The notes under the pieces were generated by a model that had not been told where the DNA came from, made no database searches, and saw only the letters and a program-made list of their open reading frames with translations. From Chloroflexota bacterium (lineage in GTDB: Bacteria; Chloroflexota; Dehalococcoidia; Tepidiformales; Tepidiformaceae): DNA of 64,000 nucleotides. Below, piece after piece: positions 22,317-24,836 of this stretch (position 1 is the stretch's first letter; the number at the start of each line of letters is the position of its first letter). The translations under genes were made by a program, and so were the position numbers. The stretch covers positions 62,001-126,000 of the forward strand of contig JACRBT010000016.1 in assembly GCA_016234445.1 (NCBI GenBank), given 5' to 3'.

Positions 22317-22322
22317 TACAAT
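22317..22322 (+). promoter_or_regulatory. -10 box TACAAT, probable leaderless promoter
   Basis: Ends 6 nt before ATG 22329. This supports initiation upstream of the in-frame TGA at 22371 rather than at the GTG at 22401. Confidence 0.55.
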
Positions 22323-22328
22323 CGCGCT

Positions 22329-22970
22329 ATGGCCGAACCGATGAAGGTCACCGTCATCTCCGACTACGTCTGACCGTGGTGCTGGATCGCTGCCCGTCGG
22401 GTGGCGCAGTTCGAGGAGGAGTTCGAAGTCACCGTCACGTGGTGGCCGTTCGAGCTGCACCCTGAGACGCCGGCGGCTGGCGTGAACGTCGACGAGATCC
22501 TCCGGCGGACGGGGCGCGGGCGGGCCTACAGCGAGAACCTGAAGGCGTATGCGGCCGAGGCGGGGCTGAAGCTGGCGTCGAATCGCTGGCTGGCGAACTC
22601 GCACCGCTCGCTGGAGCTGGCCGAGTTCGCGCGGGACCGGGGCAAGTTCGCGGCGGTGCACGAAGCCCTCTTCCGGGCCTACTTCGAAGACGCCCAGGAC
22701 ATCGGCTCGGCGCCGGTGCTGGAGGCGATCGCTGCAGCCGCGGGGCTCGACGTGGAGGAGTGGAAGGTCGAGACGCTTCTCGGCCGCTACGCCCAGCTCA
22801 TCGACCAGACGACACTGCTCGCGCGGCAGAAGGGGGTGACGAGCACCCCGACGATCATCTTCGACGACCGGATGGTGGTGACCGGGGCGCAGGACTACCT
22901 GGTCTACCAGGACGTGCTCCGGCGGCTGGGGGCGGCCCCGCGGGAACCGCGCCACCCGGGTATCGTCTGA
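22329..22970 (+). CDS. DsbA/FrnE-family thiol-disulfide oxidoreductase, candidate selenoprotein (TGA = Sec15)
   Basis: Read through the TGA at 22371-22373, the gene encodes 213 aa of the FrnE-type DsbA family. The N-terminus MAEPMKVTVISDYV is followed by U-P-W-C and WIAARRVAQFEEEF. All other family features are intact: WWPFELHPETP, the thioredoxin-fold helical insertion, and the cis-Pro region VTSTPTIIFDDRMVVTGAQ. The TGA falls exactly on the first Cys of the CPWC active site, where Sec replaces Cys in redox selenoproteins. A hairpin follows at 22388-22406. Initiation at ATG 22329 (or 22341) is supported by TACAAT 6 nt upstream. The alternative, a GTG start at 22401, would delete the first beta strand and active site, which is implausible for such a conserved frame. 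A recent nonsense mutation or sequencing error is the other option. No SelA/B/C/D gene lies in the window. Confidence 0.78.
22371..22406 (+). promoter_or_regulatory. UGA codon with candidate bacterial SECIS hairpin
   Basis: TGA at 22371-22373. Downstream, CGCTGCCC (22388-22395) pairs with GGGTGGCG (22399-22406) over 8 bp including two G-U pairs, with apical loop GTC. The loop begins 22 nt after the TGA and starts with G. Known bacterial SECIS elements have a stem of similar size, a G early in the loop and this kind of spacing. Not run through a SECIS search program. Confidence 0.6.
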
Positions 22971-22973
22971 GCC

Positions 22974-23720
22974 ATGCGTTTGCTCGTCGCCACCTTCAAC
23001 CTTCGCAACACGACCGACCGGTACGAGGAGCGAAAGCCCCTCCTGGCGGCGGGTTTCGCCGCGCTGGCGCCGGACATCATCGGGCTCCAGGAGGTGATGT
23101 TCGTGGACGACCGGCAGGACGACTTCCTCGCCCGGCAGGTCCCGGACCGGCTGTACACGTCGGTAGACGCGCGGAGCGAGCGTTACCCGGGCTTCGGGAA
23201 CGCGATCCTCTGTTCGGTGGGCGAAGTGCAGGCCCACGAGGAACTGCGGCTGAGCCGGAACCGGGTGGCCCACCGCGCGCTCGTCGCCCTGCCGGAAGGG
23301 AAGATGCTCTGGTTCGTGAACACGCACCTCCACCACAAGCCGGGGGAGCCGGAGGTGCGGCTGGAGCAGGCGGACGCGATCTGCGGCTGGATGGCGGAGG
23401 CGCCGGCGGCGGATGCGACGATCATTGCCGGGGACTTCAACACGCCGCCCTTCGAGCCCGCGTACGCGCGGATGACGGCGGCGGGCTACCGTTCGGCCTA
23501 CCGGGAGGCGAACGGCGAGGAGCCGGCCGTAACGTGGCCCTCCGGGATCATCGCGGAGACGATGGACACCGACGGCGACCCGAACTGCCTCGACTACCTC
23601 TGGCTCGGGGGCTCGGCGCGGGCGGTGAGCGCGCGGCTGGCGTTCAACCAGCATGCGCCCGGAGACCCGACCCTGTACCCCAGCGACCATTTCGCGGTCG
23701 TGGCCGAAGTCGAAATCTAG
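22974..23720 (+). CDS. Endonuclease/exonuclease/phosphatase (EEP) family protein
   Basis: 248 aa. Family motifs in order: LVATFNLRN, DIIGLQEVM (metal-binding Glu), VNTHLHHKP, TIIAGDFNTPP (catalytic Asp/Asn) and YPSDHFAVVAEV (SDH). No signal peptide. Metal-dependent phosphodiesterase of unknown substrate (nucleic acid, phospholipid head group or nucleotide). ATG 22974 follows the selenoprotein stop by 3 nt; a TATCGT box ends 7 nt upstream and overlaps the preceding stop region. Confidence 0.88.
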   Translation: MRLLVATFNLRNTTDRYEERKPLLAAGFAALAPDIIGLQEVMFVDDRQDDFLARQVPDRLYTSVDARSERYPGFGNAILCSVGEVQAHEELRLSRNRVAHRALVALPEGKMLWFVNTHLHHKPGEPEVRLEQADAICGWMAEAPAADATIIAGDFNTPPFEPAYARMTAAGYRSAYREANGEEPAVTWPSGIIAETMDTDGDPNCLDYLWLGGSARAVSARLAFNQHAPGDPTLYPSDHFAVVAEVEI

Positions 23721-23750: not shown

Positions 23751-24836
23751 ATGATCGGGGCGATGGTGAACCTCTGTGGCTGTTGCGGCGGCGCGGACCG
23801 TGCGGCCGTCGTCCTGCGCTTTCGGGGCCTCGCCTGGCGGGCAGGCTGGTTCTTCGATGGCCAGGCGCCGGCGGAACGGCCGCTCTGCGTGGCCTGCGCG
23901 AACTGGCTGCTCGGCGTGGTCAACCGGACAGCGGGCGCTGGCCGTGCACCGGCGCTGTTCGGGGCGCCATCGCGGGGGACACGGGGTGTCGCGGCGGTCG
24001 ACCGCTGCAATCTCTGCGGATCGGTGACGGGCGCGACGGCGGCCTACGCGGCGTCCGAGCCGGCGGGCCACCCGGAAGTCCCGTCTATCGGCCCGCTTGT
24101 CGCCTGCGGGCCCTGCGAGATGTGGCTGCTGGGCATCGCCGCCGATGGCCGCTCGGCCCAAGGAGCCGCGTCGCGCGCGGTCGACGGCGACTATGGCCAG
24201 TGGCCCCACCCGAACCTGAGGCATCTCACGGTAGCGGTGGAGACGGCCGCCCCGGGCATGGCGCGGACGATCGAGGAGGTCTGCCGGGAGATGGGCGTGG
24301 GGATCGTGGGCCCGCGGGAGGCGAGCGTGCGCTTCGGCGACACGCCGGTCGTGGCAGGAGACGCCGAGGCCGGCTGCGGAACCGTGCTGTTGTGCCCGTT
24401 CGTCGGCCGCCGGGCGCTGATCCCGATGCTCGGTCCCGGTGTTGCCGAGTGGCTCACGGTGCCTTCGACCCCGCAGCAGGTGTCCGCGGCGCTGGTGAAG
24501 GCGTCGCGCGAGTGGCGGGATCCACCCCAGTGGGACGCGGCGAGCGGGTTGCGGCTGGTCAGCCAGTTGCCGGACCCGGCCCTTTGCCTGGCGTTCGAGC
24601 CGGCCCCGGGCGTTGGCATCGACGAGGTCGCGTGGTTCCTCAAGCGGTTTTCCCGGGGCTACGACGACGTCGTCGCGATCCCGGGCACGGGGCAGGTCGC
24701 GGTGGTGCCGCGGGCTCGCGGGGCCGGGCTTTCCCGGGCGGGGACGCGGATTGCCGGAGCCCTCTCGGGCCGGGCTGTGCTTGCCGCCCCGGGTTGGGGC
24801 AATTCTCCAGCGCGGCGTTTCGAAGCAGCAGGGTGA
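23751..24836 (+). CDS. Unknown protein with Cys clusters and possible degenerate GGDEF-like C-terminus
   Basis: 361 aa, family not recognised. The N-terminal third has two zinc-ribbon-like Cys pairs: CGCCG with CVACANW, and CNLCG with CGPCEMWLLG. A duplicated CxAC/CGPC...W(L)LG pattern suggests two copies of one small treble-clef unit. The middle part (GRRALIPMLGPGVAEWLTVP and STPQQVSAALVKA) looks like the end of a receiver domain. The last part (YDDVVAIPGTGQVAVVPR, AGLSRAGTRIAGAL) has the rhythm of a GGDEF domain with the signature replaced by GTGQV. That reading is inference by pattern only. An alternative start is ATG 23763. Confidence 0.6.
   Translation: MIGAMVNLCGCCGGADRAAVVLRFRGLAWRAGWFFDGQAPAERPLCVACANWLLGVVNRTAGAGRAPALFGAPSRGTRGVAAVDRCNLCGSVTGATAAYAASEPAGHPEVPSIGPLVACGPCEMWLLGIAADGRSAQGAASRAVDGDYGQWPHPNLRHLTVAVETAAPGMARTIEEVCREMGVGIVGPREASVRFGDTPVVAGDAEAGCGTVLLCPFVGRRALIPMLGPGVAEWLTVPSTPQQVSAALVKASREWRDPPQWDAASGLRLVSQLPDPALCLAFEPAPGVGIDEVAWFLKRFSRGYDDVVAIPGTGQVAVVPRARGAGLSRAGTRIAGALSGRAVLAAPGWGNSPARRFEAAG

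Follow-up and report, generated by a model that had tools for sequence, protein, structure and literature searches.

An FrnE-type gene of the DsbA family in a Chloroflexota bacterium with an active-site UGA codon almost certainly read as selenocysteine

In a stretch of 64,000 nucleotides from a Chloroflexota bacterium, hereafter the window, we find a gene whose internal UGA codon almost certainly specifies an active-site selenocysteine (Sec) in a small redox enzyme of the DsbA family. The gene lies on the forward strand at 22329–22970, opens with an ATG at 22329, closes with a TGA at 22968–22970 and, when the internal UGA is translated as Sec, encodes 213 residues (22329–22967) in one open frame that starts MAEPMKVTVISDYVUPWCWIAARR.... 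The recoded triplet is codon 15 (TGA, 22371–22373), which stands directly before CCG TGG TGC, and Sec15 thus occupies the first position of a U-P-W-C motif whose last position, Cys18 (codon at 22380–22382), is the sole Cys in the protein and is invariant in an alignment of 35 sequences. The initial annotation had described an in-frame TGA replacing the first Cys of a CPWC motif within a frame intact on both sides, and this is what we observe: GC3 is 0.93 upstream of the internal TGA and 0.92 downstream of it, coding-like on both sides, and the terminal TGA is the only further in-frame stop. Without recoding, mechanical gene calling yields only a 189-aa ORF from a GTG at 22401, which is consistent with the earlier expectation that annotation pipelines would truncate the gene. 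The presence of that ORF also bears on the alternative that the UGA is a true stop, with a working product starting downstream, for example at the same GTG, and an upstream frame that serves as a regulatory leader or persists as a relic. Such a product would, however, be devoid of the first strand and the entire UPWC site, which rank with the best-conserved parts of the protein; in relatives, no codons other than TGA and those for Cys occur there, and the Cys alleles read through; we consider termination at this codon highly improbable.

A Pfam search assigns the Sec-containing translation to the DSBA family (PF01323, E 3e-31), and its best solved relatives by sequence are Deinococcus radiodurans FrnE (PDB 5cnw/5cp1, E 6e-21) and Streptomyces SCO1869. 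An AlphaFold2 model, computed with an alignment of 35 relatives, reaches a pLDDT of 95.3, and a Foldseek search with this model returns D. radiodurans FrnE as the best PDB match (E 1.4e-14); when the two sequences are aligned, the TGA coincides exactly with the first Cys of that protein's CPWC motif. A further invariant residue in the 35-sequence alignment is Pro174 (codon at 22848–22850, within STPT), which from family knowledge we take to be the cis-Pro-loop position that faces the active site in thioredoxin folds. The N-terminus, MAEPMKVTVISDYV, runs directly into the first strand, leaving no signal peptide, and the protein is probably cytosolic. Of the features that characterize the FrnE subfamily, the DsbA-type thioredoxin fold with its helical insertion is found, as is a CXXC-type motif near the N-terminus, here with Sec in first place, whereas the C-terminal CX4C carried by many but not all members is absent, Cys18 being the only Cys. 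This absence is compatible with FrnE membership, as some FrnE proteins are without a C-terminal CX4C (PMC8945050).

To follow the recoded position through evolution, we searched 38 genomes of the order and 393 sampled from the class, and obtained many FrnE-type proteins whose frame is interrupted by one TGA and no more. The TGA stands at the same codon in five orthologues from other genomes of the family (66–75% identity) as well as in many more distant ones, and the closest relatives have TGA, never TGC or TGT, at the site. Among the 49 motif-resolved loci, 33 have TGA at the aligned position and 16 a Cys codon (TGC or TGT), so that alignment with Cys-containing FrnE homologues, a comparison already suggested in the initial annotation, places the TGA at a conserved redox Cys; one further locus (L045), read by eye, carries UHWC instead of UPWC. 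A maximum-likelihood tree needs eight Sec/Cys changes, at least five of them forced by well-supported branches. Within the order, selA is present in 22 of the 24 genomes with TGA alleles versus one of the eight with Cys alleles only (Fisher p 8e-5), and the two TGA genomes without selA, which are 81% and 72% complete, both carry tRNA-Sec and selB. The rest of the class follows the same trend more weakly (33 of 41 TGA versus 8 of 15 Cys genomes, p 0.085), partly because many of its genomes are incomplete. Taken together, the alternation of codons, the repeated switches and the association with selA form the pattern expected of Sec, unlike that of mutation or artefact.

These data also bear on whether the TGA could stem from faulty sequencing or assembly, or could mark a Cys gene in decay that recently acquired a nonsense mutation. 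Single-base changes from TGC or TGT to TGA are generally common and the source assembly is in 20 contigs, both of which could favor such an origin. Conservation of the TGA at the exact codon across the orthologues, both within the family and at greater distance, nevertheless excludes chance and sequencing error, and its recurrence in independent assemblies makes it very unlikely that resequencing would return TGC. Furthermore, the frame after the TGA is open, and its codon differences from the closest relatives are more often synonymous than non-synonymous (21 to 14 against L023). An error or a decaying gene therefore appears scarcely conceivable, and we retain Sec as the residue at position 15.

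Several observations on the wider distribution can be recorded alongside. Four genomes of family f66 (G167, G186, G235 and G252) carry a Sec-FrnE gene and selB, three of them with a clear tRNA-Sec, and gave no selA match at a threshold of E 1e-50; missing contigs likely explain this, and the absence from four of the five genomes within the family is notable. In one genome (G010:C111 and G010:C216), the window's FrnE type occurs as two copies, of which one has the TGA (71% identity) and the other no internal stop (59% identity). A search of a plasmid collection gave only distant matches, below 60% identity, and those among the matches listed are DsbA family oxidoreductases or unannotated.

The initial annotation had made its proposal dependent on Sec machinery in the genome and had predicted further selenoproteins, and both are found. 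The source genome (3.54 Mb, 97% complete, 20 contigs) encodes a tRNA-Sec (66.9 bits against a gathering score of 47, with the anticodon TCA assigned by ARAGORN) together with selA (540.8 bits, E 2e-162), selB (317.5 bits, E 1e-94, cut-off 242) and selD (360.7 bits, E 7e-108). The selD gene (L020, G000:C10:286703–287638, minus strand) itself carries an in-frame TGA at ECGGU, the place that Sec takes in many SelD proteins, and the SelD of this genome is probably a selenoprotein in its own right. On another contig, a second FrnE-type paralogue (L002:1480–2097, 35% identity) also has a TGA in its UPWC motif (...VVSDFVUPWCYVG) and belongs to a separate branch that is carried by most of the family. 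With two UPWC FrnE genes and a TGA-containing selD, the genome therefore holds at least three predicted selenoprotein genes. For formate dehydrogenase, a common bacterial selenoprotein, nothing scored above the cut-off and an internal stop was likewise absent. A scan of the window for U-x-x-C and C-x-x-U motifs brought up three other formal candidates, at 24418 (+), 53980 (−) and 50887 (−), whose frames are short or unconvincing. Near the tRNA-Sec gene, about 80 nt upstream and on the same strand, lies a tyrosine-recombinase-like ORF of 405 aa (tRNA gene and ORF at L003:1497–1594 and 1677–2894), and the tRNA gene may serve as an integration site.

It is against this genomic background that decoding of the UGA as some other amino acid, through an altered genetic code or a suppressor tRNA, has to be weighed. 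Codes in which UGA specifies Trp exist in some lineages; the FrnE-type gene itself, however, terminates with TGA, and the residue replaced is the catalytic Cys in a genome with a complete Sec system. With Trp or Gly in its place, thiol chemistry would be expected to be lost. We assign this possibility a negligible probability and keep to decoding as Sec.

A bacterial SECIS element is a hairpin that follows the UGA closely on its 3′ side, at a set spacing, and carries a small apical loop led by G. A putative hairpin of this kind is found at 22388–22406 (+), where an 8-bp stem (22388–22395 paired with 22399–22406) encloses a 3-nt GUC loop (22396–22398). The presence of a hairpin with a G-leading loop was thus correctly noted from the outset; the distance of 22 nt from the UGA given for its beginning, however, is that of the loop, whereas the stem begins after 14 nt. 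A loop spacing of 22 nt suits a bacterial SECIS. The first loop base is G in all 33 TGA alleles, whereas the equivalent base is G in 10 of the 16 Cys alleles, and the inner seven stem pairs are kept in 6/6 members of the window's clade, with C-G, U-G and U-A occurring at one of them. The local fold averages −11.1 kcal/mol in TGA alleles versus −7.2 kcal/mol in Cys alleles (Mann-Whitney p 1.4e-6, relatedness ignored). Taken by itself, the window's own 60-nt segment folds no more strongly than shuffles do (z +0.26), and synonymous recoding of this copy often folds equally well (p 0.19). The hairpin is therefore unremarkable alone and informative across relatives, its strength lying only in the group contrast between TGA and Cys alleles. 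An Rfam scan of the window returned a SAM riboswitch (RF00162, 28805–28914, +, 81.4 bits) and tRNA only, with no match to a SECIS family.

Upstream of the gene, a −10-like TACAAT (22317–22322, +) lies 6 nt before the ATG. TACAAT stands in loci L001, L023 and L024, TATACT occupies a similar distance in many loci related to the second paralogue, and motifs of this kind recur in many orthologues. The −10 box of the initial annotation is thus present and recurrent, but a strict sigma-70 scan found no full promoter. With such motifs so close to the ATG in many relatives, the FrnE-type gene is likely to have a transcript of its own, with little or no leader. The next gene (22974–23720, +), a member of the endonuclease/exonuclease/phosphatase family (PF03372, E 6e-15), begins 3 nt past the stop and is possibly co-transcribed with it, the link between the two being only positional.

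Based on these sequence features, we propose with high confidence that the product of the window gene is an FrnE-type thiol/disulfide oxidoreductase of the cytosol in which Sec15, inserted through SelB and the hairpin, would act as the nucleophile and which would be regenerated from outside. In such a scheme, SelB carrying Sec-tRNA(Sec) would be recruited by the hairpin 3′ of the UGA for insertion of Sec, the machinery and the hairpin both being recognizable in the sequence. The enzyme would then most likely act in the cytosol, where it would reduce or isomerise disulfides or other thiols in oxidised form: Sec15 would attack the substrate to form a mixed selenenylsulfide, which Cys18 would resolve to an internal Se-S bond. 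An outside reductant would be needed for that bond because the protein has neither another Cys nor a C-terminal CX4C, and thioredoxin or a low-molecular-weight thiol, for example, could serve as the partner. The reductive or isomerising role would follow that of a single Deinococcus protein, to which the identity is 27%. The literature presents FrnE as a DsbA-family oxidoreductase with a CP(W/F)C motif and a predicted cytosolic location, and the Deinococcus protein has been proposed to act in the cytosol on oxidised thiols (PMC8945050).

A literature search covering openly licensed papers found no dedicated report of Sec-FrnE in bacteria or in this lineage. Sec-containing DsbA-like (UxxC) proteins are already known, and the window gene is a well-supported further example that leaves the known picture of Sec coding unchanged. 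More tentatively, and at a level of confidence somewhat short of even, we suggest that it belongs to a class-wide group of cytosolic Sec-FrnE proteins, represented in the window's family by two paralogous branches and marked by at least five Sec/Cys switches, often accompanied by disappearance of the Sec system, and by regeneration through means other than CX4C. If so, this group would constitute a distinct selenoprotein subfamily so far unseparated within the broad 'DsbA-like' class. For the Chloroflexota lineage itself, the data point to the use of Sec in at least three genes, those for SelD and the two FrnE paralogues, all of which standard gene calling would truncate. Close relatives, among which Sec/Cys pairs are numerous, offer a natural series in which the advantage of Sec over Cys in FrnE could be studied.

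DsbA-like selenoproteins of PF01323 with a UxxC motif appear in a 2006 survey (PMC1794560), as 'DsbA 1' with 63 sequences in an ocean metagenome survey (PMC2398784), in a 2016 table (PMC5029168) and as 'DsbA-like protein form 1' in a 2026 review (PMC13188914). They resemble the window protein in family, in the UxxC motif with Sec first and in their prokaryotic origin, and differ in that the portions of these sources drawn on here single out neither the FrnE subfamily nor the Chloroflexota lineage; the likeness to this group (example NIP15863.1) is one of family and motif type. An NCBIfam search gave only a weak match, to the Rcas_1661 thioredoxin-like (seleno)lipoprotein family (NF041057), which extends over the C-terminal half; that family is one of lipoproteins, whereas the window protein has no signal peptide, and at 31.8 bits, far under the curated cut-off of 190, we rejected membership in it. 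In eukaryotes, SECIS elements are located in the 3′ UTR. Green algae (Mamiellophyceae and M. viride) are reported to possess a Sec-containing oxidoreductase that is likewise named FrnE, a likeness by description, and differ in being eukaryotic hosts (PMC6627142). D. radiodurans FrnE (DR_0659; 5cnw, 5cp1, 5xwh) matches the modelled fold over its whole length (query TM 0.85). At 27% identity, it differs from the window protein in having Cys in place of Sec and a C-terminal CX4C (239–244), which is thought to regenerate the Deinococcus enzyme and is absent here. The two proteins nonetheless share the position of the redox motif, with CPWC at the equivalent place in D. radiodurans FrnE, and a predicted cytosolic location (PMC8945050).
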